Positions 3,274 through 18,420 of a stretch of 57,406 bases of DNA are shown here, in pieces (the stretch's first letter is position 1; the number at the start of each line of letters is the position of its first letter). The stretch is taken from NCBI GenBank assembly GCA_025362795.1, contig JANYFE010000011.1, positions 1-57,406 of the forward strand, written 5' to 3'. Under the pieces are notes generated by a model. The model made no database searches. It worked only from the letters and a program-made list of their open reading frames with translations, and was not told where the DNA came from. The translations under genes were made by a program, and so were the position numbers. This DNA comes from Rhodobacterales bacterium. Lineage in GTDB: Bacteria; Pseudomonadota; Alphaproteobacteria; Rhodobacterales; Rhodobacteraceae.

Positions 3274-3316
3274 AAGGCCGGGGGTTTCACACCCCCGGAC
3301 CCCCGTGGGATATTTA
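3274..3316 (+). repeat. Dispersed hairpin repeat, copy 1 (probable terminator)
   Basis: A perfect 7-bp stem CCGGGGG / CCCCCGG (3278-3284 and 3292-3298) with loop TTTCACA is followed by ACCCCCGTGGGATATTTA. The 43-base unit recurs with one mismatch at 4467-4509, in reverse orientation as a variant at 11757-11793, and in degenerate form at 40794-40842. Here it lies between two convergent genes and can serve as a terminator. Confidence 0.8.
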
Positions 3317-3333: not shown

Positions 3334-4449
3334 TCAGGTGGCGTTCAGCGCCGCCTCTATCGCGTCCCACAACGGGTCCAGCGGTTCGCAGCCGACTGAC
3401 AGCCGGATGAAACCGGGGGCCACCGGATCACCCCAGCGGGCACGGCGTTCGCCAGCGGTATGGGTGCCGCCAAAGCTGGTGGTTTGCGCGATATAGGGAC
3501 AGGCGGCGAGAAAGGCCTCGGCCCGGGCTTCGTCTTCCAGCGTGAAGGTCAAGAGAAAACCAAAGCCGGACATTTGCTTCAGGGCAAGGGTGTGAGACGG
3601 GTCATTGGGCAGACCGGGATAGCGCAGCGCCGTGATGCGGGGATGCGCGGCAAGCCGTTGCGCGATGGCTTCGGCCGATCGGCACATGCGATCAAGACGC
3701 ACCTCCAGCGTTTCGATGCCGCGGTGGACCAGCCACGCCTCGAACGCGCCGGGCACCGCACCCGAGATGCGGCGCCAATCGCGGATGCGTTGGATCAGCG
3801 CAGGGTCGCGGCCCGCGACATGGCCGAACAGGACGTCGGAATGGCCCGCCGGCGCCTTGGTATCGGCAGCAACCACGAGGTCGGCGCCAAGGTCGAGCGG
3901 GCGTTGCAGGAGCGGCGTCATGGTGGTGTTGTCGACGATCAGCCTGGCACCGGCGGCATGGGCGCGGGTGGCGATGAGGGCGATATCGCACAGGTCAAGA
4001 CCGGGATTGGAGGGGGTTTCGAGATAGACCACGGCGGACCCGGTCAGGTCATATGCCGCCATTTCCAGCGTCGGAACCTCGATGATCTGAATGCCAAGCG
4101 GTTTCAGGAATTCGGTGCCCAGCACGCGGGTGACATAATAGCCATCCGATGGGATGATCAGGCGGTCACCGGTTTTGAGAATGGCAAACAGGGCGGCGGA
4201 GATCGCGGCCATGCCAGAGGGAAAGCTGACGCAGGGCGCATCTTCGAGAATCGCCAGCTGTTGCTCCAGCTCCTCCCAGGTGGGGGTGGACATCCGGCCA
4301 TAGGCAAAGGGGGCGCCTACGACCTCTGGCAGGTGATAGGTTGTGGCAGAGATTATGCCAGGGGCCACCGGATCGCCTTTCTGCAGGCGATGGGCGCGGT
4401 GGTGCAAGAGGTCGGCAAAGCGGCGCTGCGGGTCGGTGTTGCGGATCAT
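3334..4449 (-). CDS. Cys/Met metabolism PLP-dependent enzyme (cystathionine gamma-lyase/synthase family)
   Basis: A 371-residue fold-type I PLP enzyme of the cystathionine gamma-synthase, beta-lyase and gamma-lyase family. YGRMSTPTWEELEQQLAILE, FPSGMAAISAAL (the phosphate-binding turn) and LETPSNPG are standard. The Schiff-base lysine is in ADTKAPAGHSDVLFG, a variant of the usual TKYxxGHSD in which the residues after Lys are altered. The C-terminal SFGGTHTAGERR and RLSVGCE also fit. It is last in the leftward cluster, 111 bases after the beta-hydroxyacid dehydrogenase, with hairpin copies on both sides. A sulfur-amino-acid role is known for the family; a role in handling an intermediate of the amine cluster is inference. 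Specific reaction unassigned. Confidence 0.85.
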   Translation of the reverse strand: MIRNTDPQRRFADLLHHRAHRLQKGDPVAPGIISATTYHLPEVVGAPFAYGRMSTPTWEELEQQLAILEDAPCVSFPSGMAAISAALFAILKTGDRLIIPSDGYYVTRVLGTEFLKPLGIQIIEVPTLEMAAYDLTGSAVVYLETPSNPGLDLCDIALIATRAHAAGARLIVDNTTMTPLLQRPLDLGADLVVAADTKAPAGHSDVLFGHVAGRDPALIQRIRDWRRISGAVPGAFEAWLVHRGIETLEVRLDRMCRSAEAIAQRLAAHPRITALRYPGLPNDPSHTLALKQMSGFGFLLTFTLEDEARAEAFLAACPYIAQTTSFGGTHTAGERRARWGDPVAPGFIRLSVGCEPLDPLWDAIEAALNAT

Positions 4450-4466
4450 GGGCGGCTCCTGTCGGC

Positions 4467-4509
4467 AAGGCCGGGGGTTTCACACCCCCGGACCCCCGTG
4501 GAATATTTA
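4467..4509 (+). repeat. Dispersed hairpin repeat, copy 2
   Basis: Nearly identical to copy 1 (one substitution in the tail). The stem CCGGGGG / CCCCCGG is at 4471-4477 and 4485-4491. It lies in the gap between two leftward genes of the amine cluster, so it may be an intercistronic hairpin rather than a true end. Confidence 0.8.
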
Positions 4510-4560
4510 TGAACAGGCGAATTGCAAAGGGGAAGCGGGATTGGTGGCGGCGGGTTTGGT

Positions 4561-5460
4561 CTATTCCAGCCGTGCCGGAAAGCCCGGGGCCCGCAGGTCG
4601 GTGCCCAGCACATCTTCGAGCAGCTTGACGATCTGGGTGCTTTGCGCCGCTCCACCATAGGCGGCACGGCCCTTCATGAAGGTCTGGTGCGTCAGAGAGG
4701 CCAGGTCCAGGGGCACGCCATATTCGCGGCCGAAACCCATCGCAAAGCCCAGATCTTTCAGCGCGAGATCCATCGAGAAGGCGATGTCATACGACCCGTT
4801 CAGGATCAGCTGTCCCTCGGTTTCATGGACGAAAGAGCTGCCGGAGGAGGCGGCGATGGCTTCCCACGCCGTCTTCAAATCCAGACCGCCGCGCTTGGCC
4901 AGCATCAAAGCCTCGCCATCCGCCACCAGATGGATGAAGGCCAGCATGTTGGTGATGACCTTGATGACCGCAGCGGAGCCCAGCGGGCCCATGTGGAAAA
5001 TCTTGTGGCCCATCGCCTGCAAGGCCAGGCGGTGCAGATCATAAAGCGTCTGCGGCCCACCCACCAGCACGGTGATCTCGCCCCGCGCCGCCAGATGAAC
5101 GCCGCCGGTCACCGGCGCCTCGAGCAGGTGCACATCGACCTGTTCAGCCAAGCCGCCCAAGCGCAGGATATCATCGCGGCCAAGGGTCGAATTCTCGATC
5201 CAGGTCGCGCCGGGTTTCAGCGCGGACAGCACCTCGGCCAGCACGCGCTCTGAGACGGCGGGCGATGGCAGGCAGGTGAAGATGTGATCGACCTGCCCCG
5301 CCACGTCGGCGGCAGAGCTGCCGACCTTTGCCCCCATCGCCCGGTGCCGTTCGGCCAGCGCCGGGTCGCGGTCATAGACGGTCAGATCAAAGCCGCCCCG
5401 GATCAGGCTGGCCGCCAGATGGCCGCCGAGATTGCCCAGGCCGATATACCCGTATTTCAT
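4561..5460 (-). CDS. NAD(P)-binding beta-hydroxyacid dehydrogenase (3-hydroxyisobutyrate dehydrogenase family)
   Basis: A 299-residue cytosolic dehydrogenase. The N-terminal Rossmann motif is YIGLGNLGGHLA (residues 4-15). LLEAPVTGG (about 116-124) is the substrate-binding signature. AAVIKVITNML carries the catalytic lysine in the usual Kx3N context. Members oxidise 3-hydroxyisobutyrate, tartronate semialdehyde or similar beta-hydroxyacids; the substrate here is open. Its ATG overlaps the stop of the upstream aldehyde dehydrogenase by 4 bases, implying translational coupling. An alcohol-to-semialdehyde-to-acid pair with that enzyme is plausible. Part of the leftward LysR-linked cluster. Family confidence is high, role is inferred. 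Confidence 0.9.
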   Translation of the reverse strand: MKYGYIGLGNLGGHLAASLIRGGFDLTVYDRDPALAERHRAMGAKVGSSAADVAGQVDHIFTCLPSPAVSERVLAEVLSALKPGATWIENSTLGRDDILRLGGLAEQVDVHLLEAPVTGGVHLAARGEITVLVGGPQTLYDLHRLALQAMGHKIFHMGPLGSAAVIKVITNMLAFIHLVADGEALMLAKRGGLDLKTAWEAIAASSGSSFVHETEGQLILNGSYDIAFSMDLALKDLGFAMGFGREYGVPLDLASLTHQTFMKGRAAYGGAAQSTQIVKLLEDVLGTDLRAPGFPARLE

Positions 5461-6887
5461 GCGCTATATCCCACTATGCCTTTGACCTCACAGAAGTCGT
5501 GGATGCCCCAGTCCGCATATTCGCGGCCATTGCCGGATTGTTTGTAACCGCCGAAGGGCGCGAATGTGTCCCAGGCGGGGTAGTTGAGGTTGACGGTTCC
5601 GGCGCGCAGTTTGCGGGCGACAGGAATGGCTTCGGCGACCGGGCCGGAGACATAGGCGGCCAGGCCATAAGGGCTGTCGTTGGCAGAGGCGACGGCCTGA
5701 TCCACCGTGTCATAGGGCAGGATCACCAGCACCGGGCCAAAGATTTCCTCGCGCGCCACCGTCATATCGTCGGTCACGCCGCCAAAGATCGTGGGTTTGG
5801 CAAACCAGCCACGGTTCAGGCCGGCCGGACGACCAAGGCCGCCTGTGACCAGAACGGCGCCCTCGGCGATGCCGGACTGAATAAGGTGCTGCACCTTGTC
5901 GAACTGCGCTTTGGAGATCAGCGGCCCCATCGTGGTGCTTTCGGCCTGCGGATCGCCGGGGACGGCAGCCTCGGCGGTGGCGCGGGCGACGGCCAAAGCC
6001 TCGTCATGGCGGTTGCGCGGCACGAACATCCGGGTCGGCGCGTCGCAGCTTTGCCCGGTATTGCCAAAGCAGCCCTCGACCCCGCCCTTGACCGCTGCAG
6101 CCAAATCGGCGGACGGCAGGATGATGTTGGCCGATTTGCCGCCCAGTTCCTGCGCCACGCGTTTGACGGTGGGGGCCGCTGCCGCAGCCACCGCCGTGCC
6201 CGCCCGGGTCGAGCCGGTAAAGCTGACCATATCGACCTGCGGATGCGACGCCATGCGGGCCCCCACATCCAGCCCGGTTCCGTTGACCAGGTTGAACACG
6301 CCGGGCGGCACACCTGCGGCATGGCAGACCTCGGCAAACAGAATGCCCGACAAGGGCGCAATTTCGGATGGTTTCAGAACCATTGTGCAACCGGCGATCA
6401 GGGCGGGCGCAACCTTGCAGGCAATCTGGTTCATCGGCCAGTTCCACGGCGTGATCAGGGCGCAGACACCGATGCCTTCGTGAATGATACGCGTGGTGCC
6501 GCGGTCATATTCCCAAGCCATGTCCTGGGCGGCCTTGATCGTGCTTTCGATATGGACCTGGCCCGCCCAGACTTGCGCCTCGCGCGCCCAGGTTATCGGC
6601 GCACCCATTTCGGTGCTCATCGCCTGGGCGAAATCTTCGGCGCGGGAATTATAGATCGCCAGCACGCGCTGGACCAAGGCGATGCGGTCTGCCACCGGCC
6701 AAGCCGTGTAGGCATCAAAGGCGGCGCGGGCGGCGGAAACAGCCCGGTCCACATCCGCCGCATTGCCCAAGGCAACCTCTGCCACAGTTTCCTCGGTGGC
6801 GGGATTCTCGACACCCATACGGGTCTGGGAGAATGGCGCAACCCAGCTGCCGTTGATGTAAAACTTTAGGATGTTCGCAGAGGTCAT
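5457..6887 (-). CDS. NAD(P)-dependent aldehyde dehydrogenase
   Basis: A 476-residue member of the aldehyde dehydrogenase superfamily, oxidising an aldehyde to the acid in the cytosol. Conserved elements in order: ITPWNWPMNQ (oxyanion Asn), VLKPSE, FTGSTRAG (cofactor loop), the general base Glu in QELGGKSANI, the catalytic Cys in FGNTGQSCDAPTR, EEIFGPVLVI and FGGYKQSGNGRE. Length is normal for soluble ALDHs. It starts 7 bases after the stop of the MttB-family gene and overlaps the next gene by 4 bases, so it is firmly within the operon. A betaine-aldehyde, semialdehyde or formaldehyde-related substrate is possible, but none is established by sequence. Confidence 0.93.
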   Translation of the reverse strand: MTSANILKFYINGSWVAPFSQTRMGVENPATEETVAEVALGNAADVDRAVSAARAAFDAYTAWPVADRIALVQRVLAIYNSRAEDFAQAMSTEMGAPITWAREAQVWAGQVHIESTIKAAQDMAWEYDRGTTRIIHEGIGVCALITPWNWPMNQIACKVAPALIAGCTMVLKPSEIAPLSGILFAEVCHAAGVPPGVFNLVNGTGLDVGARMASHPQVDMVSFTGSTRAGTAVAAAAAPTVKRVAQELGGKSANIILPSADLAAAVKGGVEGCFGNTGQSCDAPTRMFVPRNRHDEALAVARATAEAAVPGDPQAESTTMGPLISKAQFDKVQHLIQSGIAEGAVLVTGGLGRPAGLNRGWFAKPTIFGGVTDDMTVAREEIFGPVLVILPYDTVDQAVASANDSPYGLAAYVSGPVAEAIPVARKLRAGTVNLNYPAWDTFAPFGGYKQSGNGREYADWGIHDFCEVKGIVGYSA

Positions 6888-6894
6888 TGTTATC

Positions 6895-8457
6895 TCACTT
6901 GAAATGGATGTTGTAAGTCGCGCGGATCGCTGCGTCGATTTCTGGGTCGATCTGTCTACCAGCCTTGCTAAGGATCAAATTCTTGCGCTGGATTGCCTTA
7001 TCCAGCAGCAAGGGCTTGCCGGCCTCGTTCCATTCCTTGGGGCTCATCCGGTTGCCGACTGCCGGGTAGATGTATTCGGTCTGCATCAGTTTAAGCGTCT
7101 GGTCCGACCCAAGGTAGTGGCCCGGCCCGCCAAGGCAAACCTCTTTCATCGCCTCGATCGACGTGCTGTCTTCGGTGACCTCGATGCCCCGGACGCAGCG
7201 CATCGCCTGCCCCAGCAGATCGTCACCCAGAATCAGGCTTTCCATGCAGAACCCCAAAAGCGAGGCGTGCATGCCGACTGCTTCGTAACACATGTTCAGG
7301 CCGGAAAGGCCCGCCAGCGTGTTGGTGATGCCCTGCTCCCATCCCGCCTGCATGTCGGGCAGTTTGCTGTCGGAGATGCCAGAGGCGGCACCGCCAGGCA
7401 GGTTGTAAAAACGATGCATCTGGGCGCAACCCGCGGTCAGCAGCGCCTGTTCTGCCGAACCGCCAGACATGGCGCCGGTGCGCAGGTCAGACACGAAAGG
7501 CCAGGTGCCGAAAATGCAGGTGGCGCCGGGTTTGATCGCATTGGCATAAACCACACCAGCCAGGCATTCGGCCATTGCCTGCACGATGGTCAGAGCGATC
7601 GGCGCGGGTGCTGTGGCGCCGGCCTGCCCCGCCGACAACAGCAGCATCGGCATGCCAGCGCGGATGCACGCCTCCATCGTGATGCAGCTTTCTTCGGCGA
7701 ACTTCATCGGCGGGACAACGAAGCAGTTGGAATTGCTGACGAAGGGCCGCTCGCGCCATTTGTCCTCGCCGCCCGCGACCATGTGCAAAAGGTCAAAGCA
7801 GCCCTGCACATGCGACGGATCGCTGAACGAGGTGCCGACGTGTTTCTTGGTGCCGGACAGGCAGCCATACAGGGTGTTGATGTCCATGTCGAAATTGTCG
7901 ACCACATCACGGCAGACCATCGTGCGCTGATAGAAGTGGATGTTGTCGAGGTTTTCAACCAGCCGGGCGGCGTCATACAGGTCTTGCGCGGTGCTTTCGC
8001 GGTAGTCCAACGTGATCGGGTCAACGATATGCACCGCAGCGCCCGCCGTGCCGTAGTGGACGTTGGTGCCGGTCAGATGCAGGTCGTATTTCGGATCGCG
8101 GCCAAAAAGCGTGATGTCGCGGGCGGCGATGTTCAGCATGTCTTCGACGAGCGCACGCGGGAAACGGATGCGCCCGTCATCGCCCTGAATGGCCCCGGCA
8201 TTGGTCAGCAGTTCAACGCCGGAGGGTGGAGCTTGCGACAGGCCGATGACCTCCAAAGCCTCCAGTGCGCTGGCGTGGATTTTGGCGATACCGGCGTCGG
8301 TCAGTGGTTTGTATTGGCCGCCCTTCATGCCGCCCCGCACCGGGCGCAGGTTTTCGGCCAAAGGTGCTGACCGGACCGCCACCCGGTTCGCCCGCCCGCC
8401 GCTGCGCCGGTTGCGCGCGGGTTCACAGGCCTCGCCGATCACATCAATATCGCTCAT
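6895..8457 (-). CDS. Trimethylamine methyltransferase (MttB) family protein, non-pyrrolysine
   Basis: A 520-residue member of the MttB superfamily, TIM-barrel methyltransferases that move a methyl group from a quaternary or tertiary amine to a corrinoid protein. Seen: RPVRGGMKGGQYKPLTD near the N-terminus, HYGTAGAAVHIVD, a central PGATCIFGTWPFVSDLRTG and a C-terminal LGGPGHYLGSDQTLKLMQTE. All codons are sense; there is no in-frame amber codon, so this is a non-pyrrolysine homologue, the group that includes the glycine betaine methyltransferase MtgB. The start at 8457 is chosen because an AAGGAA ribosome binding site precedes it; a TTG at 8475 would be poorer. No corrinoid protein or methylcorrinoid:folate transferase lies in the window. 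The substrate is unknown. Confidence 0.88.
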   Translation of the reverse strand: MSDIDVIGEACEPARNRRSGGRANRVAVRSAPLAENLRPVRGGMKGGQYKPLTDAGIAKIHASALEALEVIGLSQAPPSGVELLTNAGAIQGDDGRIRFPRALVEDMLNIAARDITLFGRDPKYDLHLTGTNVHYGTAGAAVHIVDPITLDYRESTAQDLYDAARLVENLDNIHFYQRTMVCRDVVDNFDMDINTLYGCLSGTKKHVGTSFSDPSHVQGCFDLLHMVAGGEDKWRERPFVSNSNCFVVPPMKFAEESCITMEACIRAGMPMLLLSAGQAGATAPAPIALTIVQAMAECLAGVVYANAIKPGATCIFGTWPFVSDLRTGAMSGGSAEQALLTAGCAQMHRFYNLPGGAASGISDSKLPDMQAGWEQGITNTLAGLSGLNMCYEAVGMHASLLGFCMESLILGDDLLGQAMRCVRGIEVTEDSTSIEAMKEVCLGGPGHYLGSDQTLKLMQTEYIYPAVGNRMSPKEWNEAGKPLLLDKAIQRKNLILSKAGRQIDPEIDAAIRATYNIHFK

Positions 8458-8471
8458 CTTCGGCTTCCTTT

Positions 8472-9299
8472 TCAAACGGTGGGGCGTGCTGCGCCCTTGC
8501 GCAGCATCGAATCAATTTCATTGCCAGAGGCGGCATCCAGCAGCGGGGCAAAGCTGCCCTGATCCAGCATGGCGCTGACACTGTCGCGAATCGCGGCATG
8601 GGTCAGCCGCGCGATCTGGCTGCCAAGCGAGATGCGCCTGACGCCCATGGCGGCAAGTTCGGGGACAGTCAGATTGCGGAGCGGGCCAGCCACCAGCGCA
8701 TTGACCGGATTCGTGACCGAAGCCAGCACCCGCGCCAGTTCGGCCCTGCCCGGAGGAACCGGCAGGTAAAGCAGGTCAGCACCTGCGGATTCAAAGGCTT
8801 GCAGGCGGCGGATGCCTTCGGCCAGATCGTAACTGCCGTTCATCACCCCATCGGCACGGGCGCAGAGGATAAACGGGCGACCCAAGGCCCGGGCGGCAGC
8901 GGTGGCGGCCTTGATGCGTTCAACCGCCAGATCAAAGCCATAGGCCGGTGCGCCGGCGGTTTGGATCGTATCCTCGATGGAACACCCCGAAAGGCCCGCT
9001 TCGGCGGCAAGTTGGATGGTTTCGGCGACGGTATCAGGATCATCGCCAAAGCCGTTCTCGAAATCGCCGCTGACCGGCAGATCGGTGGCGGCGACCAGCG
9101 CCTCGGCATGGGCCAGCGCCTCATCCCGCGTCACCTGCATATCCGCGCGACCCAGTGTAAAGGCATGCGCGGCGGAGGAGGTGGCGAGCGCCCTCGCCCC
9201 CAAAGCCGCCATCATCCGGGCGGAGCCCGCGTCCCACGGGTTCGGGATCACGAAACAGCCGGACTGGTGCAGGTCGTGAAAGACATCGTGCCGTGTCAT
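8472..9299 (-). CDS. Isocitrate lyase / PEP mutase superfamily protein
   Basis: A 275-residue beta-barrel enzyme of the PEP mutase/isocitrate lyase superfamily, which makes or breaks C-C or C-P bonds of alpha-keto acids with Mg2+. Visible: FVIPNPWDAGSARMMAALG (residues 16-34), ATSSAAHAFTLG, VSGDFENGFGDDPDTVAETI, where the Asp and Glu contribute to metal binding, and the active-site IED of GCSIEDTIQ. RADGVMNGSYDLAEGIRRL follows. The KKCGH motif of true isocitrate lyases is absent, so it is a lyase or oxaloacetate-decarboxylase-like member. Its start overlaps the upstream oxidase stop by 4 bases. Why it sits in an amine cluster is unclear. Confidence 0.87.
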   Translation of the reverse strand: MTRHDVFHDLHQSGCFVIPNPWDAGSARMMAALGARALATSSAAHAFTLGRADMQVTRDEALAHAEALVAATDLPVSGDFENGFGDDPDTVAETIQLAAEAGLSGCSIEDTIQTAGAPAYGFDLAVERIKAATAAARALGRPFILCARADGVMNGSYDLAEGIRRLQAFESAGADLLYLPVPPGRAELARVLASVTNPVNALVAGPLRNLTVPELAAMGVRRISLGSQIARLTHAAIRDSVSAMLDQGSFAPLLDAASGNEIDSMLRKGAARPTV

Positions 9300-11734
9300 G
9301 CGCGCACCCGTTCGGATTTGGGGTCATACATCGGGGCGATGGAGGCCACGGCCTCGTGCCGCACCCCCGCCACCTCGATCTCATAGCGCGACGATAGCAC
9401 ATCCGCCTCGGATTCGCCCGAGCATGGCACATAGCCAAGCCCGATCGCCCCGCCAAGGTGATGGCCGTAGTTGCCCGAAGTCACCGGGCCCACGATCTTG
9501 CCATCCCGCACCACAGCCTCGTTGTGGAACAACAGCGGATCAGGGTCGGTCAGGCGGAACTGCACAAGGCGGCGGTTCAGGCCCTGCTCCTGTTTGCGCA
9601 AGACCGCATCGCGGCCAATGAAATCGGGTTTTTTGGTGCGGACGGCAAAGCCCAGACCCGCCTCCAGCACATGATCTTCATCCGTGATGTCATGGCCAAA
9701 GTGGCGATAGGCCTTCTCGATCCGGCACGAATCCAGCGTGTGCAGCCCGCACAGTTTCAGACCCATATTGGCGGCTTCCAAGGCTTCGAAAACATGCGCC
9801 GTCTGGTCGGTGGAGACATACAATTCCCACCCCAATTCACCGACATAGGTGACGCGATGCGCGCGTGCCAGCCCCATACCAATCTCGATTTCCCGCGCCG
9901 TCCCAAAGGGATGCGCTGCGTTGCTAAAGTCGGCTGGGCTCACCGCCTGCAACAGTTCCCGCGACTTCGGCCCCATGACGCACAGCACCGATTCCGCCGC
10001 CGTGACATCGGTGATCACGGCGAAAGCGTGACCTACATGCCGCCGCAACCACGCCAGATCGCGCTGCAAGGTCGCCCCCGGCACCACCAGCAGATACGCC
10101 GTCTCCGACAGGCGGGTGGCGGTCAGATCGCTTTCAATACCACCGCGCGGGTTGAGCATCTGGGTATAGACCACGCGGCCAGTCGCCACATCCATCTGGT
10201 TGCCGCACAGCCGGTTCAGGAAAGCGCAGGCGTCGCGTCCCTCGATGCGGATCTTGCCGAACGAGGTCATGTCGAACAGGCCAACACCCGTGCGCACAGC
10301 GATATGTTCGGCGCGCTGATTTTCGAACCAGTTCTGGCGTTTCCAGCTGTAGCGATACTGCCGCTCTTGCCCGGGATTTGCGAACCAGTTGGCGCGTTCC
10401 CAGCCTGCCATCTCGCCAAAGACGGCCCCACGATCGGCCAGATGCTGATGCAAAGGCGATCGCCTGATGCCCCGCGCGGTTTCGACCTGACGGTAGGGGA
10501 AGTGGTCGGCATAAAGCAGGCCCAGCGTTTCGCTGACCCGTTCTTTCAGGTATTTGCGGTTGCGCTGGAACGGTTGGGCGCGGCGGATATCGACCTCCCA
10601 CAGATCGAACGGGGCTTCGCCTTCGGTGATCCAATGCGCCAGCGCCATGCCCGCGCCACCCGAGCCGGCAATGCCGACCGAGTTATAGCCGGCCGCAATC
10701 CAGTAGCCGCCCAGTTCCGGTGCCTCGCCCAGATAATAACGGTCATCGGGGGTGAAACTTTCAGGACCGTTGAAGAAGGTGTGGATGCCCGCGGTTTGAA
10801 ACAGCGGCAACCGGTTCATCGCATGTTCGAGGATCGGCTGGAAATGGTCCCAGTCTTCCGGCAGCGTGTCGAACATGAAATCTTCGCGGATGCCATCCAT
10901 GCCCCAGGGTTTCGCCTTGGGCTCGAACGCGCCGACCATCATCTTGCCCGCGTCGGATTTGTAATAGGCGCATTCATCCGGCACGCGCAGCACCGGCAAG
11001 TGGCCAAGGCCGGGGATCGGTTCGGTGATCAGGTAGAAATGCTCGCAGGCGTGCAGCGGCAAGGTGACGCCCGACGCCTCAGCCAGATCGCGGCCCCACA
11101 TCCCACCGCAGTTGATGACGACATCGGTGGCAATATGGCCGGGCTCGCCGCCCACCACGTAATCCACCCCGGTCACGCGGCCATTCGCGCGAGTGACACC
11201 CGTGACCTTGGTATGCTCGAATATCTGGGCGCCGCGCATCCGGGCCCCCTTGGCCAAGGCCATCGCGATGTTGGCCGGGTCGCATTGGCCATCCAGCGGC
11301 AGATGAACCGCGCCCACGACATCGCCGATTTCCAGATGCGGATACATCTGTTTCGCTTCGATCGGGCTGATTTCCCGGACATCGACGTCGAAGATGCGAG
11401 CGACGGTTGCCTGACGCAGCAACTCCTCATGCCGGGCCTCGGTCAAAGCGACAGAGATCGAACCGACCTGACGCATCCCCGTCTCGACTCCGGTTTCCGC
11501 CGCCAACTTGACGTAAAGATCGGCGGAATACTTGGCGAGGCGGGTCATGTTGGCCGACCCGCGCAACTGCCCGATCAGCCCCGCCGCATGCCAGGTGGTG
11601 CCCGAAGTCAGCTGTTTACGCTCCAGCAGAACCACGTCGGTCCAGCCCGCGCGGGCCAGATGATAGGCTACCGAACAGCCGGAGACGCCCCCACCGATGA
11701 TCACCGCCCGCGCCTGTTTCGGAACCTCAGCCAT
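9296..11734 (-). CDS. DMGDH/SARDH-family FAD-dependent oxidase with folate-binding GcvT-like domain (paralogue B)
   Basis: An 812-residue fusion. An N-terminal DAO-type FAD domain (VIIGGGVSGCSVAYHLARAG, residues 11-30, and TTWHAAG, whose His is the covalent flavin site in dimethylglycine dehydrogenase) occupies about residues 1-420. A C-terminal GcvT-like tetrahydrofolate domain (ERANWFANPGQERQY, GVGLFDMTSFGKIRIEG, YVGELGWELYV, LGYV) fills the rest. Known relatives oxidatively demethylate dimethylglycine or sarcosine and deliver the carbon to folate as methylene-THF. It is second in the leftward cluster after a related 813-residue paralogue, with a hairpin in the 63-base gap, and overlaps the PEP-mutase-like gene by 4 bases. 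The exact amine is unassigned. Confidence 0.9.
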   Translation of the reverse strand: MAEVPKQARAVIIGGGVSGCSVAYHLARAGWTDVVLLERKQLTSGTTWHAAGLIGQLRGSANMTRLAKYSADLYVKLAAETGVETGMRQVGSISVALTEARHEELLRQATVARIFDVDVREISPIEAKQMYPHLEIGDVVGAVHLPLDGQCDPANIAMALAKGARMRGAQIFEHTKVTGVTRANGRVTGVDYVVGGEPGHIATDVVINCGGMWGRDLAEASGVTLPLHACEHFYLITEPIPGLGHLPVLRVPDECAYYKSDAGKMMVGAFEPKAKPWGMDGIREDFMFDTLPEDWDHFQPILEHAMNRLPLFQTAGIHTFFNGPESFTPDDRYYLGEAPELGGYWIAAGYNSVGIAGSGGAGMALAHWITEGEAPFDLWEVDIRRAQPFQRNRKYLKERVSETLGLLYADHFPYRQVETARGIRRSPLHQHLADRGAVFGEMAGWERANWFANPGQERQYRYSWKRQNWFENQRAEHIAVRTGVGLFDMTSFGKIRIEGRDACAFLNRLCGNQMDVATGRVVYTQMLNPRGGIESDLTATRLSETAYLLVVPGATLQRDLAWLRRHVGHAFAVITDVTAAESVLCVMGPKSRELLQAVSPADFSNAAHPFGTAREIEIGMGLARAHRVTYVGELGWELYVSTDQTAHVFEALEAANMGLKLCGLHTLDSCRIEKAYRHFGHDITDEDHVLEAGLGFAVRTKKPDFIGRDAVLRKQEQGLNRRLVQFRLTDPDPLLFHNEAVVRDGKIVGPVTSGNYGHHLGGAIGLGYVPCSGESEADVLSSRYEIEVAGVRHEAVASIAPMYDPKSERVRA

Positions 11735-11756
11735 TTTCTACCCTATCATCTGTCCA

Positions 11757-11793
11757 TAAATATCCCGGGGGTCCGGGGGCCGGCCCCCGGCTT
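11757..11793 (-). repeat. Dispersed hairpin repeat, copy 3 (reverse orientation)
   Basis: On the leftward strand it reads AAGCCGGGGG, a CCGG loop, CCCCCGG and then ACCCCCGGGATATTTA. The core at 11773-11790 is a perfect 18-base palindrome. It sits in the gap between the two DMGDH-like genes, inside the operon, and could give partial termination or protect an mRNA end. Confidence 0.75.
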
Positions 11794-11797
11794 GCTG

Positions 11798-14239
11798 TCA
11801 AGCACGGATGCGTTCGTTTTTCGCGTCCCACAACGGCGCATCGGCTTGCACCACAGCAGGATAGCGGGTGCCGAAGATTTCAACCTCAACCTTCGTGCCC
11901 GGCTGGTTGACCTCGGATTTCAGCATGCCCAGTCCGATGCAGGCCTGCACCCGGTGGCCATAATAGCCCGAGGTGAGTTCGCCGACCACGCGGCCTTCAT
12001 GCCAGATTGTCGACATATAGGGCGGATCCTGATCGCCAGCGTCGATCACCAGCGTGCAGAACCGTTTGGTGACGCCCGCCTGCTTTTCGGCAGCCAGCGC
12101 CGCCTTGCCCTTGAAGTCAGGTTTGGTCCAGTCCACGAACCGTTCCAGCCCGCCTTGCAGGACGGTATAATCGGTCGAAAGATCGCCCTTCCACGCCCGG
12201 TAGCCCTTTTCAATGCGCAGCGAATTCAGCGCGAACATGCCAAAGGGTTTCAACCCCATCGGCATTCCTGCGGCCACTACAGCGTCCCAGACACTGGGCG
12301 TATCGGCAAGGCGTGAATGGATTTCCCAACCCAGTTCGCCCGCAAAGGACACCCGGAACAGGTGGACTTCGGCCCCGGCGATGGTCGCGGTCTGGAAGGT
12401 CAGCCAGGGCCGGGTCAGGTCGGCTTCGGTAACTTGTGCCAGAATGGTGCGGGACGCAGGCCCGGTCAGAATGTGACAGGACCACGCATCGGTGCCCTCG
12501 CTCAGCGTCAGATGGGCGGGCAGGGTTTTCAGCAGCCATTCGCGGTCATGCGATTGAGCGGTCGCAGCGGTGATCAGCAGAACCTCATCCTCCGCCAGCC
12601 GCGCCACCGACATTTCGGTCACGATGCGGCCTTTGTCGTCGGCGAAATAGGCGAGGCCAAGGCGTCCGACCGGGGGGATTTTCCCGGTGATCTGGCGCGA
12701 TAGCCACTCCACCGTTCCCGCGCCAAAGATGCGGTAGCGCGAGAAACCGGGCAGGTCGAGGATGCCTGCGGCGTCGCGGACGGCTTCGCATTCCGCTTGA
12801 ACCGCCGCGAACCATGGTCCCTTGCGGTCCCATGTCTGTTGGGCGGCCTCGGATATGTCATCGCCGGGCCGGGCATACCACAGCGCGCGTTCCCACCCAT
12901 TATAGGGACCGAACTGCGCGCTAAGGGCAGATGTCCGCATGTGGACGGCGCTCAATTTCTTGCCCCGCCCCTCGGGCCAGGCGTGGTGGGGGAATTGCAT
13001 GGCATATTCGTGGCCGTAAACCTCCATCCCCTTGGTCACACAATAGGCCGGGTCTTCAAACCCGGTGAAACGGCGCGGGTCGCAGGACCACATGTCCCAT
13101 TCGGTAGCACCCTGCGTTACCCATTCCGCCAGCACCTTGCCTGCACCACCCGCCTGACAGATGCCGAAGGTGAACACGCAAGCCTCGAACGCATTGGGCA
13201 CGCCGGGCATCGGGCCGATCAGCGGATTGCCATCGGGGGTATAGGGGATCGGGCCGTTGATCACCTTGGTCAGGGCGGCTTTTTCCAAAAGCGGCACGCG
13301 GGCCATCGCATCACCGATGTACCACTCAAGGCGTTCCAGATCGTCGGGGAACAGCTGGAACGAAAAATCCTGCGGAAAAGGATCATCCGGCGTCGCCCAA
13401 TGCGCCCGGCAATTCGACTCATACGGGCCAAGGTTGAAACCGTTCTTTTCCTGCCGCAGATAGTAGGAACTGTCGACGTCACGCAGCAGCGGCAGTTTGT
13501 GGCCAACCTCTTTCGACCAGCCTTCCAGTTCGGGAATTGTGTCAAATAGCATGTACTGATGGCTCATCACCATCATCGGCAGGTCGCGTCCGAACCACTT
13601 GCCGACCTCGCGGGCGTAATAACCGGCGGCGTTGACCACGATTTCGCACCGGATATCGCCTTTGGGCGTGGACACCACCCAGTCGTCACCGTCGCGCCGC
13701 ACGCCAGTGGCCGGACAAAACCGCTCGATCCGCGCGCCCAGCTGGCGGGCGCCTTTGGCAAGGGCCTGGGTCAGTTGGGCCGGGTCGATGTCGCCATCGT
13801 AGGGATCATACAAGGCCCCCGTCAGGTCGTGAATCTCAAGGAACGGATAGCGGGATCTGATCTCGTCAGGGGCAAGAAGCGTCAGGTCCATGCCCTGATA
13901 GTGGCCCATGCCCACGACGCGCTGAAACTCTTGCAGCCGCTCTTTGGTATGGGCCAGTCGCAGCGACCCTGTGACGTGGTAATTCATCGGGTAATCGACC
14001 GCAGCACCCAAGCCGCGATACAGACCGGCCGAATAGCGCTGCATGTTCATGATCGACCAGGAGGACGAAAATGTCGGCACGTTGCCCGCCGCGTGCCAGG
14101 TCGAGCCGGCCGTCAACTCATTCTTTTCCAAGAGCACGCAATCGGTCCAGCCGGCCTTCGCCAGATGGTAGAGGCTGGACGCACCAACCGCACCGCCACC
14201 AATGATCACCACACGGGCGGTTGAGGGAAAATCGGCCAT
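11798..14239 (-). CDS. DMGDH/SARDH-family FAD-dependent oxidase with folate-binding GcvT-like domain (paralogue A)
   Basis: An 813-residue protein with the same two-part architecture as its neighbour. The FAD domain has VVIIGGGAVGASSLYHLAKA at residues 10-29 and STWHAAG with the likely covalent-FAD histidine. The GcvT-like half has WERALWYARPGDD, GILDLPGFSRYRIFG, SFAGELGWEIHS and SGYYGHRVQACIGLG. Two longer starts exist upstream in frame; 14239 is chosen because GGAG lies 7 bases before it and the protein then begins MADFPSTARVV like the paralogue. It is the first gene of the leftward operon, behind a good promoter at 14264-14292 and a LysR box. A stepwise demethylation role with paralogue B is inferred. 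Confidence 0.9.
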   Translation of the reverse strand: MADFPSTARVVIIGGGAVGASSLYHLAKAGWTDCVLLEKNELTAGSTWHAAGNVPTFSSSWSIMNMQRYSAGLYRGLGAAVDYPMNYHVTGSLRLAHTKERLQEFQRVVGMGHYQGMDLTLLAPDEIRSRYPFLEIHDLTGALYDPYDGDIDPAQLTQALAKGARQLGARIERFCPATGVRRDGDDWVVSTPKGDIRCEIVVNAAGYYAREVGKWFGRDLPMMVMSHQYMLFDTIPELEGWSKEVGHKLPLLRDVDSSYYLRQEKNGFNLGPYESNCRAHWATPDDPFPQDFSFQLFPDDLERLEWYIGDAMARVPLLEKAALTKVINGPIPYTPDGNPLIGPMPGVPNAFEACVFTFGICQAGGAGKVLAEWVTQGATEWDMWSCDPRRFTGFEDPAYCVTKGMEVYGHEYAMQFPHHAWPEGRGKKLSAVHMRTSALSAQFGPYNGWERALWYARPGDDISEAAQQTWDRKGPWFAAVQAECEAVRDAAGILDLPGFSRYRIFGAGTVEWLSRQITGKIPPVGRLGLAYFADDKGRIVTEMSVARLAEDEVLLITAATAQSHDREWLLKTLPAHLTLSEGTDAWSCHILTGPASRTILAQVTEADLTRPWLTFQTATIAGAEVHLFRVSFAGELGWEIHSRLADTPSVWDAVVAAGMPMGLKPFGMFALNSLRIEKGYRAWKGDLSTDYTVLQGGLERFVDWTKPDFKGKAALAAEKQAGVTKRFCTLVIDAGDQDPPYMSTIWHEGRVVGELTSGYYGHRVQACIGLGMLKSEVNQPGTKVEVEIFGTRYPAVVQADAPLWDAKNERIRA

Positions 14240-14263
14240 GACGTACTCCGTTCGGTCGCGCGG

Positions 14264-14292
14264 AGTATCCGCTGCGGACGAGACGCTTTCAA
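14264..14292 (-). promoter_or_regulatory. Sigma-70 promoter of the amine-cluster operon
   Basis: On the leftward strand TTGAAA (14292-14287) and GATACT (14269-14264) are separated by exactly 17 bases, with five and four of six consensus matches. Transcription would start near 14257, leaving a leader of about 18 bases before the ATG at 14239. Confidence 0.6.
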
Positions 14293-14313
14293 TTCGCCAA
14301 TTCATGCGCTATT

Positions 14314-14330
14314 GATCGAGGAAAACGATC
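14314..14330. promoter_or_regulatory. LysR-type operator (T-N11-A inverted repeat)
   Basis: GATCG-N7-CGATC is a perfect 5-bp inverted repeat containing T-N11-A (14316 to 14328), the LysR recognition pattern. Its centre at 14322 is about 65 bases upstream of the predicted start of the leftward operon, the canonical LysR position. It is 12-28 bases before the LysR start codon, which also suits autoregulation. Confidence 0.6.
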
Positions 14331-14341
14331 AGGGGTGCCGT

Positions 14342-15193
14342 ATGCAGATTGAGCTTCTTGACACTTTTCTGGACCTTATCGAAACGCGCAGCTTTCACCG
14401 CACGGCGGAACGGCTGCATATCACCCAATCCACCGTCTCGGCCCGCGTCATGGCGCTGGAGCAGGCGGTGGGTGGGCGGCTGTTCACCCGCAGCCGCGCC
14501 GGCACCAACCTGTCCACCGAGGGGCTGAAGTTCGAGGTGCATGCCCGTGCCCTGCGCCATGCCTGGACCGAGGCACAGCGGGCGGTGGCACCATCGGGTA
14601 ACGCGGCTGTCAGTTTGCGGATCGGCATTCAGAATGACCTTGCCGCCGGGCAAATTGGCGAATGGGTGTCGAACTTTCGTCGAAGCCTGCCGGAATGCGC
14701 GTTTTACATCGAGCCGGATTATTCCGCGCAGATGTGCAAGGACATCGACCGTGGCGCGCTGGATTTTGCGGTGGTCTATTCGCCGCAAGCCCTGCCCGAC
14801 CTGCACATCGCCTCTGTGGGCGAGGTGCGCTATCGCCTGATCAGCGGAGATGGCGCGGCGCGGTCTGACCTTAGTCCATTGCGCTATATCAGGGGCAGCT
14901 ATTCGGCGGCGTTTGACGAGGCGCATCGGCAGATCATGCCAGAGTTTTCAGCGGCGCTGCTGGCTGCGGGCCAGAATGCAGCCGTTGCGGGGTTGCTTGC
15001 CACGATGGGGGGGGCGGGCTTTGTGCTGGAGGAAACCGCGCAAGCGCTGATTGCAGGCGGCACCTTCAAGGCGGTCGAAGATGTCGAGGCGATCAATCAG
15101 CCGATTTATGCCGTGATGCACAACCGGCACCGCACGTCGCGCATGCACCGCAGGTTGACGCGCATCGTTTCGCGGCGTCTGGGCACCAGCTAG
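14342..15193 (+). CDS. LysR-family transcriptional regulator
   Basis: A 283-residue regulator. The N-terminal winged helix-turn-helix is typical: LLDTFLDLIETRSFHRTAE, RLHITQSTVSARVMALEQ, GGRLFTRSRAGTNLSTEG (residues about 5-65). It is followed by a periplasmic-binding-like effector domain (SLRIGIQNDLAAGQIGEWV onward). Start 14342 (MQIELLDTF) matches the normal LysR N-terminus; an in-frame TTG at 14312 would add ten residues and lies inside the operator, so it is rejected. It diverges from the DMGDH/MttB cluster across about 100 bases holding a T-N11-A palindrome and the operon promoter. It is therefore the likely activator of that cluster, with an amine or its breakdown product as effector (inference). 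Confidence 0.92.
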   Translation: MQIELLDTFLDLIETRSFHRTAERLHITQSTVSARVMALEQAVGGRLFTRSRAGTNLSTEGLKFEVHARALRHAWTEAQRAVAPSGNAAVSLRIGIQNDLAAGQIGEWVSNFRRSLPECAFYIEPDYSAQMCKDIDRGALDFAVVYSPQALPDLHIASVGEVRYRLISGDGAARSDLSPLRYIRGSYSAAFDEAHRQIMPEFSAALLAAGQNAAVAGLLATMGGAGFVLEETAQALIAGGTFKAVEDVEAINQPIYAVMHNRHRTSRMHRRLTRIVSRRLGTS

Positions 15194-15282: not shown

Positions 15283-16437
15283 ATGCCAAAGGACGAATTT
15301 TGCAGCGGGCGGCGGGTGCCGCGCTTGCAGACAGGAGAGCCGGTCACCGTGGTTGATCAGGCCCTGGTGCTGCCGCGCACTGGCAAGGGGGCCTTTGCCG
15401 TGGTGGACAGCAACGGCGCGCCTGTGGTGGACGCCGTCAGTTTCCGCAAGGATGGGCTGGAGTGCAGCGACTTTATCGACCGCAGCACCCCGCGAAAGCT
15501 GCGCCACCATGCCGGGCGCTATCTGTATGCCGGGGATTACTGGTCGCATTTCGGGCATTTCATTTTTGAATCCCTTGCCCGGCTATGGGCGCTGGACTTG
15601 CTGCAGGATCGGCTGGACGGCATCGTATTTCTTGTGCCCCGGCGGGGCGCGAAGGACGGTTTGCGCGCGGACAGTCTGCAAGCGCGCATTTTGGCGATGC
15701 TGGGGATCGACCTGCCGGTGTTGCTGATTTCGGAACCGTCGAGTTTCGAGCAGCTTTACGTGCCGCGTCAGGGATGTGGGATGGGCGGCATGGCGGCCGG
15801 CACACCGTCACACCGGCGATTCCTGCAAGATCGCCTGCGCAATGTGGCACCGAAACCGGGGGTAGAGCGGGTCTATCTGACACGGTCGGGTTACGGACTG
15901 CGGCGCGGCGGCATCTTCGGCGAAGGGTTTCTGGAGCAGAACCTGAAGGCGCAGGGATATGTCATCTACAGCCCCGAACAGGCCCCGATCGAGGACCAGA
16001 TCGCTACCTATCTGGGGGCGCGGCAGATCGTGGCCCCGGACAGTTCTGCGCTGCATCTGTTCGGCTTTGTTGCAAAGCCCGAGCAGGACCTGGCCATCGT
16101 GCTGCGCCGCAAGACCGGGGCGAAGGATTTGCTACCGCAGATTACCGGCTTTACGGGCCGCAAGCCGTTGGTTTTGGATTGCATCACCCGCACATTGAGC
16201 CGCGACAATGCCCGCATGGCGAGTTGGGGCCAATTCGCCGATCTCGATTTTGACGCTTTGGGACAAGGGCTGGCGGCGGCGGGGTTCATTGACCCAACCT
16301 TGTGGAACGGACTGAGCGACTGGCGGCGCGACAGATTCCGGCGCAACTACGAGGCGCGGCTGGATTGCAAGCTGCAGGTCGCTACAACCGAGTTTGCAGA
16401 CGATAGCCCGGCACATGGGCCAGACGCACCCATGTGA
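15283..16437 (+). CDS. Glycosyltransferase family 61 (DUF563-type) protein
   Basis: A 384-residue protein with the GT61/DUF563 pattern seen in bacterial capsule or exopolysaccharide genes. GDYWSHFGHFIFESLARLW lies near residue 85, RVYLTRSGYGLRRGG in the middle, and ARQIVAPDSSALHLFGF forms the nucleotide-sugar-binding-like segment. No signal peptide or membrane helix is seen, so it should be cytosolic. Start choice is uncertain: ATG 15283 lacks a strong ribosome binding site, while a GTG at 15352 has AGGAGA upstream. There are no other polysaccharide genes nearby; it is an orphan between a LysR gene and the hut locus. Its 3' end overlaps convergent hutC by 56 bases. Acceptor and donor are unknown. 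Confidence 0.75.
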   Translation: MPKDEFCSGRRVPRLQTGEPVTVVDQALVLPRTGKGAFAVVDSNGAPVVDAVSFRKDGLECSDFIDRSTPRKLRHHAGRYLYAGDYWSHFGHFIFESLARLWALDLLQDRLDGIVFLVPRRGAKDGLRADSLQARILAMLGIDLPVLLISEPSSFEQLYVPRQGCGMGGMAAGTPSHRRFLQDRLRNVAPKPGVERVYLTRSGYGLRRGGIFGEGFLEQNLKAQGYVIYSPEQAPIEDQIATYLGARQIVAPDSSALHLFGFVAKPEQDLAIVLRRKTGAKDLLPQITGFTGRKPLVLDCITRTLSRDNARMASWGQFADLDFDALGQGLAAAGFIDPTLWNGLSDWRRDRFRRNYEARLDCKLQVATTEFADDSPAHGPDAPM

Positions 16438-17068
16438 TGGGCGCATCGGGGCCCCAGGTGCAGCGTTCGGTGATGAACAGCGCCGCGCCTTCGGCAACCG
16501 AGAGCGCCGCTGCCTCGGATGTGCTGGCGGGTTCGGCGGAAAACGCAATATCCCCGGTGGCAAAAGTGACATGCGCGACCAGCCATTCATTGGCACTGAT
16601 TTCGCTAAAATCCGGCAAGGGCTGCGGCGCGGCGGCGGGGTTCAGCCAGCGATCTTCCAGCACATAGGCGCGGCCATCGGCCAGATGCAGGGTTTGCAAG
16701 TGCAGCAGCGGGGTCGCCGCTGCCAGCTGCAACCGGGCGGCTACCGCTATGGGGGGCACTCCGGTGGTCTGCAGCAGAAGTCGGAAGGCGTGAACCTGCC
16801 CGTGCGCCGCAACCTCCTGACGGATCACCGGAATATCCAGGGTCGCCTTGCGCACGGGAAGCATGGCCACCCGCGTGCCCGCCTTGCGTTTGCGTTCCAA
16901 CATGCCGGTTTGCGCCAGTTCCCGCAATGCCCGGTTGACCGTGGCACGGGCACAATCGAATTCCAGCGCCAGGGCTTCTTCGGTCGGGATGACCGCGCCG
17001 GGGGGCCAGCGGCGGGTGCGGATGCGGGTCAGCACCTCTGCCCGAATCTCTTCCCACCCCTGTGGCAT
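16382..17068 (-). CDS. hutC: Histidine utilisation repressor HutC (GntR family)
   Basis: A 228-residue GntR/HutC-subfamily repressor. The winged HTH covers residues 1-65 (IPTEEALALEFDCARATVNRAL is the recognition region, GMLERKRKAGTRVA the wing), and a UTRA effector domain fills the C-terminal two thirds (YVLEDRWLN; the terminal TWVRLAHVPGYRL). In characterised systems urocanate is the inducer that releases HutC from DNA. Its ATG overlaps the hutF stop by one base (TGATG), so the two are co-translated. It should bind the two sites in the hutF-hutI spacer, giving autoregulation. The 3' end overlaps the convergent glycosyltransferase by 56 bases. Confidence 0.9.
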   Translation of the reverse strand: MPQGWEEIRAEVLTRIRTRRWPPGAVIPTEEALALEFDCARATVNRALRELAQTGMLERKRKAGTRVAMLPVRKATLDIPVIRQEVAAHGQVHAFRLLLQTTGVPPIAVAARLQLAAATPLLHLQTLHLADGRAYVLEDRWLNPAAAPQPLPDFSEISANEWLVAHVTFATGDIAFSAEPASTSEAAALSVAEGAALFITERCTWGPDAPITWVRLAHVPGYRLQTRL

Positions 17069-18420
17069 CAGAGATCTGCCCGCAGCCGGGTCATCGCCGC
17101 ACGGTACCGTGCCATGATCCCTTCCCGCGCCACATGCTTGCCGCCGGTCACGATGGGCCGACCGGCGGACCAGACGGCGGACACCATCCGGTCATCTCCG
17201 GCGAATATGTAGGTGTCCAGGATCGTATCCCCCTTTGACGCCGCCAAGTCCGGCCCAGAGCAATCCAGCGCCATCAGATCAGCCCATTGGCCCGGTGCAA
17301 TGGTCCCCGAGGTGCGCGCCGCTGCCTGCGCCCCGCCTTTGCAAGCCTCCTCATACAGCAGCCGGCCCGTCGAACGCCCCGGTTCGGCCAGCACCGCCCG
17401 GCTTTTGAGGCCAAGCCGCTGCGAGTATTCCAGCAGTCGCAGCTCTTCTGACACTGCGATCCGCACGTTGCTGTCGGAACCCACACCAAAGCGGCCACCT
17501 GCCGAGAGGAACCTTGGGCCATCGAAAATTCCGTCGCCCAGATTGGCTTCGGTGATCGGGCACAGGCCCGCCACCGCGCCGGACCGGGCGAGCGTTTCCG
17601 TCTCATCTGGCGTCATCTGTGTGGCGTGGATCAGGCACCAGCGGCCATCCAACGGCTGATGCGACAGAAGCCAGTCGACCGGGCGCTGTCCTGTCGCCGC
17701 CTGAATCTCGGTTACTTCGGCAACTTGTTCGGCCACATGGATATGGATCGGCGCATCCGGGGCCAAACTTGCCGCCAAAGCCAAACTTTCGGCACTGACA
17801 GCCCGCAGGGAATGCGGCGCGACACCCAGAACCGTATCGGCCGGCAATCCGGACAGCGCGACCTTAGCCCCCTGCCACAAGCGTTCAAACCGATCCATAT
17901 CATTGCCAAACCGCAGCTGCCCGGAGGCCAGCACACGCCCGTCGCAGCCGCCCCGTTCATACAGAACTGGCAGATGGGTCAGCCCCAATCCGGTCTGTGC
18001 CGCCGCCGCCGCTATCTGCGCCGACATTTCGGCAAGGTTGCCATAAGTTTGCCCGCCCGGCGCATGGTGCAGATAGTGGAACTCTGCGACCGCCGCATAG
18101 CCCGCCTCGGCCATCTCCATCATCACCATCGCCGCGATGGCCTGCACATCGTCAGGGGTCAGGCGTTCCAGAAAGCGGTACATCAGCGTCCGCCACGTCC
18201 AGAACGAGTCCTGACCACTTCCGCGCTTTTCGGTCAGCCCTGCCATCGCGCGCTGAAAGGTGTGGGAATGCAGGTTGACCGGCGCGGGCAGCAGGCAATC
18301 TAACTGCTGTTTCGCGGGAATGCCGGTTTCGACCGAGGCGATGCGGCCGTCTGCAATCGTGACCCGAACATCGCTTGCCCAGCCACCGGGAAGAAGCGCA
18401 GTTGTGGCGTTCAGGATCAT
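17068..18420 (-). CDS. hutF: Formimidoylglutamate deiminase HutF
   Basis: A 450-residue amidohydrolase-superfamily enzyme converting N-formimidoyl-L-glutamate to N-formyl-L-glutamate and ammonia, step four of the five-step histidine pathway. [17 protein letters not shown] (residues 46-62) holds the HxH metal site. [23 protein letters not shown] and GVGSDSN supply the remaining His/Glu/Asp ligands and catalytic residues. Length matches characterised HutF. It is first in the leftward hutFC transcript and diverges from hutI. A HutF route normally ends with HutG deformylase, but no hutG gene lies in this locus. Confidence 0.95.

Follow-up and report, generated by a model that had tools for sequence, protein, structure and literature searches.

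The MtgB-MtgC-MtgD system of Desulfitobacterium hafniense and Ruegeria pomeroyi contains a methyltransferase of the MttB superfamily without pyrrolysine, and its corrinoid partner can be encoded elsewhere in the genome and shared with methionine synthesis. In the same superfamily, MtpB, MtcB and MtyB of Eubacterium limosum are reportedly the methyltransferases of proline betaine, carnitine and gamma-butyrobetaine, respectively. To our knowledge, the superfamily occurs in many aerobic bacteria, with few members of known substrate, and we know of no dimethylglycine dehydrogenase (DMGDH) partners for MtpB, MtcB or MtyB. Here we analysed a 57,406-nucleotide stretch of DNA (the window; JANYFE010000011.1) within contig C13 of the 3.84 Mb draft genome of a Rhodobacterales bacterium. 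Unlike the MtgB system, it places a non-pyrrolysine MttB-superfamily methyltransferase (MttB) in the same run as two DMGDH-type enzymes (DMGDH1 and DMGDH2) and tail genes of amino acid metabolism: a PEP-mutase-family enzyme (PEPM), an aldehyde dehydrogenase (ALDH), a beta-hydroxyacid dehydrogenase (HIBADH-like) and a pyridoxal phosphate (PLP) enzyme resembling cystathionine gamma-lyase (CGL-like). The three E. limosum proteins, each with one named substrate, are likened to our MttB by description rather than by sequence, and they belong to an anaerobic acetogen.

Our preferred reading, which we rate slightly better than an even bet, is that the cluster works as an operon for the aerobic breakdown of a quaternary alpha-amino acid (betaine), with homoserine betaine (N,N,N-trimethylhomoserine), which protects some cyanobacteria against salt, as the leading candidate. 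The mechanism class, an aerobic three-step N-demethylation, we consider fairly probable; the homoserine skeleton, and with it homoserine betaine as the substrate, is a tentative assignment. In the proposed pathway, MttB would move one N-methyl group to the cob(I)alamin of an MtgC-like corrinoid protein encoded elsewhere, which would then hand it to tetrahydrofolate or homocysteine. The two DMGDH-type flavoenzymes would oxidize the dimethyl and then the monomethyl amine and pass the carbon to tetrahydrofolate, and the three demethylations together would leave a primary amino acid. A lineage-variable set of enzymes would finally consume this amino acid, most likely homoserine: the CGL-like enzyme might eliminate the gamma-substituent to give 2-oxobutyrate and ammonia, HIBADH-like and ALDH might oxidize the gamma-hydroxyl towards aspartate, and, where present, an aminotransferase and PEPM might take homoserine through 4-hydroxy-2-oxobutanoate.

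Conservation of the core and turnover of its guests

Relatives were collected by MttB, with one genome per species. Among the best 80 of 587, MttB is 77-91% identical to that of the window, and the closest (91%) comes from a metagenome bin labelled Pseudorhodobacter antarcticus. Neighbours were counted by tblastn, home-made codon-score gene calls (not a published caller) and clustering; the calls are rough, and several regions end at contig ends. Upstream neighbours were counted where 7 kb or more of upstream DNA was available (60 loci), downstream neighbours where 4 kb or more lay on that side (64 loci), and both in 54. DMGDH1 and a LysR-type regulator are present in all 60 loci, DMGDH2 in 59 out of 60 and HIBADH-like in 63 out of 64, and all four lie beside MttB in 52 out of the 54 loci, one exception being without DMGDH2 (L075) and the other without HIBADH-like (L098). 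The sequence-only reading had proposed stepwise demethylation of a quaternary or tertiary amine, and MttB, the two DMGDH-type enzymes and LysR indeed form the conserved module that the quaternary case would lead one to expect. The other genes are guests that come and go: ALDH occurs in 49/64 loci, CGL-like in 32/64, an MDR-type dehydrogenase in 15/60, PEPM in 10/60, which rules it out as a core enzyme, and a homocysteine S-methyltransferase family gene in 2/60. The exact seven-gene set recurs in only four of the 54 loci (L034, L063, L066 and L100). L066 belongs to Tabrizicola aquatica RCRI19, a culturable relative that also has LysR there, whereas the clusters of Gemmobacter aquatilis DSM 3857 and Rhodobacter sp. 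SW2 lack CGL-like and PEPM. The seven genes are not one invariant set, and a fixed seven-gene pathway was too strong a claim; other loci carry other guests. These include, across all loci, MDR dehydrogenases, homocysteine S-methyltransferase family proteins, GMC oxidoreductases, class I aminotransferases, PLP decarboxylases and Rieske oxygenases. Among the 54 loci, a GMC oxidoreductase is found in nine, a HyuA-type gene in six and a mandelate-racemase-type gene in three (the last labelled by NCBIfam; MDR, homocysteine methyltransferase family, GMC and HyuA by Pfam), and the outer flanks vary from locus to locus.

On a quick MttB tree of these 54 loci and the window (55 rows; 26 loci with short flanks dropped), the minimum number of changes is seven for PEPM, five for ALDH, eight for CGL-like, ten for MDR, four for GMC and 12 for adjacency to HutF. 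The core is stable, while the guest genes turn over. The recurrence goes beyond chance. Because the 80 are the closest relatives, part of this conservation reflects shared descent, and the phylogenetic tests are weak. A partial check on shared descent comes from regions across the class, and its outcome is mixed. MttB matches at E < 1e-85 were found in 42 out of 385 genomes sampled from the class, and a sample of 398 genomes from the phylum, whose share of other classes is not shown, gave 29 matches, all in the class of the window. In 60 selected regions from 53 genomes of this class (40, L113-L152, and 20, L179-L198; seven genomes with two MttB copies contributed two regions each), relatives of both DMGDHs lie near MttB and on its strand in 21 (16/40 and 5/20). 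The DMGDH1-DMGDH2-MttB triad is widespread but not universal.

Variant loci show how the parts are combined. In L127 the order is ALDH-HIBADH-regulator-DMGDH1-DMGDH2-MttB (its regulator assigned by clustering with that of L119), and a family-5 solute-binding protein (PF00496) and three transporter-sized frames come next; in L181 it is DMGDH1-DMGDH2-MttB-HIBADH-ALDH. HIBADH and ALDH types, here distant from those of the window (44-51% identical), therefore accompany the core in different orders. L182 reads DMGDH1, homocysteine S-methyltransferase family gene, DMGDH2, PEPM, MttB; in L183 and L184, MttB is accompanied by an aminotransferase and PEPM but by no DMGDH; and in L188 an aminotransferase and a PLP decarboxylase stand ahead of MttB. 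L179 carries DMGDH1, DMGDH2, a small HXXEE-motif protein, a Rieske oxygenase and MttB. This oxygenase, like one adjoining MttB in L194, is GbcA-like (below the GbcA cut-off), and we read both as putative alternative enzymes for the first demethylation. The relative on pSymB of Sinorhizobium meliloti has a 74% identical MttB; its DMGDH2 is missing from the plasmid gene table (such tables are incomplete), and tblastn with our gene calls recovers an open frame of 441 residues, 69% identical and shorter than the full protein. More distant relatives are found on a megaplasmid of R. pomeroyi (45%; MttB with a class III aminotransferase, two flavin adenine dinucleotide (FAD) oxidoreductases and a thiamine pyrophosphate (TPP) enzyme), in Mesorhizobium (42%; nearby genes carry a glycine betaine ABC transporter annotation) and in Leisingera (39-40%; a Rieske-type oxygenase, MttB, a mandelate-racemase family enzyme, GMC, a 'cystathionine gamma-lyase' and a TPP enzyme).

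In at least six loci (L182, L186, L190, L197, L065 and L067; Pfam was applied to the copy in L067), a homocysteine S-methyltransferase family gene stands between or beside the DMGDH genes, and in such loci homocysteine may be a methyl acceptor. In L121 (1492-9423) and L122 (1012-8832), a second, distant MttB (27%) and a DAO-type oxidase (PF01266) precede DMGDH1-DMGDH2-MttB, possibly forming a double demethylation operon. In one genome, SelA and SelB genes follow the core (L122, 10879-14267).

Enzymes and candidate substrates

MttB matches PF06253 with 342.8 bits (cut-off 25), and its open reading frame comprises 526 codons under table 11 without an in-frame amber codon, the non-pyrrolysine type. 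It scores 325.9 against TIGR02369, the equivalog model of trimethylamine methyltransferase, below the cut-off of 525, and is therefore not filed as that enzyme. Its predicted structure (mean predicted local distance difference test score 88.4; 30 rows) matches the solved structures 7xcn (MttB), 9yce and 2qne at E < 1e-34 and TMt 0.88-0.91, and also MttB 7xcl. On MtgB (9yce) the model superposes with a root-mean-square deviation of 2.3 and TMt 0.91, at 28% identity in the structural alignment; as modelled, the protein has the barrel fold of the MttB/MtgB superfamily. No corrinoid protein is encoded among the genes of the cluster. Elsewhere, the host genome holds one small MtgC-like corrinoid protein (PF02310 and PF02607), not far from a gene of the homocysteine S-methyltransferase family, and two Pterin_bind matches. 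In R. pomeroyi, a single MtgC is reported to be required both for methionine synthesis and for growth on glycine betaine (PMC12478193). Because the genome carries an MtgC-like gene and the MtgC of R. pomeroyi is shared, we infer by analogy that MttB would transfer its methyl group to a shared corrinoid protein supplied in trans.

The two DMGDH-type enzymes are 34% identical to each other. DMGDH1 scores 570 bits to mitochondrial DMGDH (5l46) and 306 to dimethylglycine oxidase (1pj5), and DMGDH2 440 and 389 bits, respectively. Both have the four-domain order of dimethylglycine dehydrogenase and oxidase and keep the WHAAG motif, whose histidine presumably has a role in covalent FAD, in 30 aligned rows for DMGDH1 and 23 for DMGDH2 (window included; 97% threshold; rows below 45% identity or 740 residues left out). 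Unlike those enzymes, the cluster has two divergent paralogues next to MttB. The pair is extra, because the host genome has three further DMGDH-family genes (the nearest paralogue of DMGDH2 being 45% identical), and its substrate is likely a larger N-methyl amino acid than dimethylglycine.

The tail enzymes belong to broad families. The best solved relative of PEPM is 4lsb, a 'lyase/mutase'; all five of its NCBIfam matches fall below the equivalog cut-off, so that it is assigned neither as PEP mutase nor as methylisocitrate lyase, and it reads IEDT where the EDK or KKCG motif, which we take to be the loop motifs of those two enzymes, would stand. We suggest that it may decarboxylate a 2-oxo acid or split one by retro-aldol cleavage. 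ALDH reaches the cut-off of none of the 25 NCBIfam models among the matches listed. HIBADH-like likewise falls short of all nine models that it matches (best 163.7 against 350), 3-hydroxyisobutyrate/tartronate semialdehyde reductase included, and is a superfamily member by Pfam only; its solved relatives include 3cky, 3pdu and 3pef, the last two presumably Geobacter enzymes with succinic semialdehyde activity. HIBADH-like, ALDH and GMC are likely oxidizers of hydroxyl or aldehyde groups. Like cystathionine gamma-lyase, the CGL-like enzyme passes NF005758 (526.2 bits, cut-off 440) and keeps Lys198 and Arg349, each in 38 out of 38 rows, which we take to be the PLP lysine and the carboxylate-binding residue. 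Unlike it, the enzyme has at the distal site THT in place of the VES of 8sf4, with His330 in 38 out of 38 rows (L172, apparently in the wrong frame, was left out), and the Leisingera copy carries the same motif. A glutamate at this site is, we assume, typical of cystathionine lyases and synthases, and because histidine replaces it the enzyme is not filed as a cystathionine lyase. A housekeeping role was rejected: two other PF01053 genes of the host score 417 and 415 bits against 277, which makes the CGL-like gene an extra copy.

We propose homoserine betaine because a C4 alpha-amino acid that carries a gamma-hydroxyl suits all the guests together. Amino acid enzyme families supply the PLP guests (CGL-like, class I aminotransferase and PLP decarboxylase), and a hydroxylated C4 amino acid skeleton best fits the tail, in line with the hydroxy- or keto-acid amine (for example a betaine of a C3-C4 acid) of the sequence-only reading. 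Homoserine is moreover a housekeeping metabolite, which would account for loci with the core only. In a synthetic pathway, homoserine and 4-hydroxy-2-oxobutanoate are interconverted by transamination, and an aldolase links the latter to pyruvate and formaldehyde (PMC8879981); PEPM might act on this oxo acid. The substrate, first left undefined, can be narrowed, short of proof, to homoserine betaine as leading candidate.

Several observations weigh against this proposal. In 39 out of the 60 class-wide regions, the two DMGDHs are not both found near MttB (only one shares its strand in nine regions, and neither does in 30, as scored in the neighbourhood of MttB). Eleven of these have an MttB 65-71% identical to ours (L114, L115, L116, L151, L183, L184, L185, L187, L188, whose region stops right after MttB, L189 and L198), and six more one at 56-62% (L191-L196). 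The varying guests may serve different betaines or other substrates in different lineages. The dehydrogenases and PLP enzymes are of broad families, and the mapping to homoserine is a parsimony fit. BtaA, an enzyme of betaine-lipid synthesis, does not accompany the MttB clade: both occur in three out of 42 genomes, compared with long BtaA matches in 38 out of 385 in the class sample. The cluster's own genes include no transporter. Mutual exclusion of GMC and CGL-like (nine and 25 of the 54 loci, none with both) was tried as evidence and set aside, as the three independent pairs (median sign-test p 1) are too few for a test.

Four of the alternatives weighed below (glycine betaine, carnitine, a betaine-lipid head group and hercynine) share the mechanism class with homoserine betaine breakdown and differ in substrate, and their probabilities overlap. 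If glycine betaine were the substrate, MttB would yield dimethylglycine, the DMGDHs would yield sarcosine and then glycine, and the tail would handle glycine-derived C2 and C3 acids, with HIBADH-like as a tartronate semialdehyde reductase. This is consistent with mitochondrial DMGDH being the closest solved relative of DMGDH1, with a tartronate semialdehyde reductase among the relatives of HIBADH-like and with the GbcA-like Rieske genes next to two MttB relatives, and loci with the core only are easily explained. However, the host has five other MttB paralogues (23-29% identical to that of the cluster) besides its three other DMGDH-family genes, and two other proteins of the MttB family, SPO2108 and SPO2134, rise in R. 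pomeroyi on N-osmolytes, glycine betaine among them (PMC12478193). Moreover, glycine has no need of a gamma-lyase, a GMC oxidoreductase or an aldehyde dehydrogenase, and Pfam finds no TPP enzyme such as glyoxylate carboligase among the cluster genes. We regard this route as unlikely.

Carnitine, or a different hydroxylated C4 betaine with its amine away from the alpha carbon, would give 4-amino-3-hydroxybutyrate, on which HIBADH-like and ALDH would act. The near-constant presence of HIBADH-like agrees with this, and the class III aminotransferase adjoining the R. pomeroyi relative fits an omega-amine, but that relative is only distantly similar, and the families of the three PLP guests mostly act on alpha-amino acids; we find such a substrate distinctly improbable. 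A similarly low probability goes to a demethylase core that merely sits beside unrelated catabolic genes, the tail having no role in betaine breakdown. The turnover of PEPM, ALDH, CGL-like and MDR on the MttB tree and the many regions in which the core stands without any tail gene point that way, whereas two firm 4-base overlaps within the run, the conservation of HIBADH-like and the renewed company of HIBADH and ALDH with the core in L127 and L181 argue for a functional tail.

The head group of the betaine lipid diacylglyceryltrimethylhomoserine, a glyceryl ether of trimethylhomoserine, is a poorer candidate still. After demethylation, cleavage of the ether would fall to the CGL-like enzyme; other lineages would cleave it following oxidation by GMC and ALDH. 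Gamma-elimination of a large oxygen leaving group would suit a CGL fold with an altered distal site, and three relatives carry GMC together with a mandelate-racemase-family enzyme. Yet the conserved set contains no lipase, the host genome has no BtaA match, and BtaA is, as noted above, unassociated with the MttB clade; self-recycling of the lipid is rejected on the last two grounds, and a lipid from outside is kept only as a rival. Demethylation of histidine betaine (hercynine) or ergothioneine to histidine for the neighbouring hut genes is very improbable: in the window hut genes are found past LysR, and 21 out of 60 loci have HutF/HutC relatives, but this adjacency is local to the close relatives and unstable (12 changes on the MttB tree), HutF and HutC queries labelled no frame in the 46 regions L107-L152, and HIBADH, ALDH, GMC and CGL-like would be left unexplained.

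Gene layout and flanking features

The sequence-only reading had described a leftward run of seven genes (3334-14239) with a divergent LysR gene, and all of these reading frames are present at their positions, with Pfam and NCBIfam returning the same families (Table 1). Two overlaps of 4 bases, the number that it had given, are firm, at the DMGDH2/PEPM and ALDH/HIBADH-like junctions; a third, between PEPM and MttB, depends on the start codon, as it exists only if MttB starts at TTG 8475 rather than at the ATG at 8457. DMGDH1 and DMGDH2 are separated by 63 bases, MttB and ALDH by seven, and HIBADH-like and CGL-like by 111 bases containing a dispersed repeat. The homology of DMGDH1 begins near 14239, and the longer frame from the ATG at 14305 gains residues that the family match does not cover. 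The LysR frame as called opens at TTG 14312; from the sequence, ATG 14342 is the likelier start. LysR may control the cluster, positively or negatively.

Table 1. Features of the methylated-amine cluster and its divergent regulator in the window
Feature	Position	Strand	Basis
LysR-type regulator, divergent	14342..15193	+	PF00126 + PF03466 above cut-off
Intergenic stretch between divergent starts, presumed regulatory	14240..14341	.	sequence read
DMGDH1, DMGDH-type FAD/folate demethylase (DAO + FAO_M + GCV_T + GCV_T_C)	11798..14239	-	Pfam
DMGDH2, second DMGDH-type FAD/folate demethylase	9296..11734	-	Pfam
PEPM, PEP-mutase/isocitrate-lyase superfamily enzyme	8472..9299	-	PF13714
MttB, non-pyrrolysine MttB-superfamily methyltransferase	6895..8475 (possible start 8457)	-	PF06253
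ALDH, NAD(P) aldehyde dehydrogenase, betaine-aldehyde/aminobutyraldehyde type	5457..6887	-	PF00171
HIBADH-like beta-hydroxyacid dehydrogenase	4561..5460	-	PF03446 + PF14833
CGL-like PLP enzyme, altered distal site (His330)	3334..4449	-	NF005758

A promoter-like consensus lies at 14292-14264 on the - strand, inside the LysR-DMGDH1 intergenic region. Over the whole region, promoter scans (six hits, 3.0 expected, standard deviation 1.5) and terminator scans (eight, 9.1 expected) are uninformative. The dispersed intergenic repeat, CCCCCGGACCCCC-NNN-GGATATTT, occurs at 3292-3315 and 4485-4508. These are two copies in the window with up to three mismatches, compared with none in 100 shuffles, and the host genome has 12 exact copies against none for the reversed control; the repeat is possibly a terminator or a repetitive extragenic palindromic (REP)-like element. 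A shorter related hairpin lies near 11764-11777.

Beyond the LysR gene, a glycosyltransferase family 61 gene (PF04577; 15244-16437), for which no match above 35% identity was found in the 106 loci searched, stands before the hut genes (16382-22893). Among the latter, HutH and HutU were assigned by clustering with frames of L068, and we take HutC and HutF to be present as well; HutF adjoins the cluster in 21 out of the 60 relatives.

Implications for methylated-amine metabolism

In summary, the catabolic module is real and conserved, and it combines known parts in a new way. In agreement with the earlier statement that no described pathway has this gene set, neither the set nor homoserine betaine catabolism is described among the top-ranked literature matches. 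The pairing of MttB with two DMGDH-type enzymes offers a genetic handle on a complete route for the removal of three methyl groups, and the module links methylated compounds with the metabolism of folate and methionine. Homoserine betaine has been measured in reef and seagrass water, in a study whose scope does not extend to microbial uptake (PMC13403184). If homoserine betaine is indeed the substrate, the module would point to degraders of this compound.

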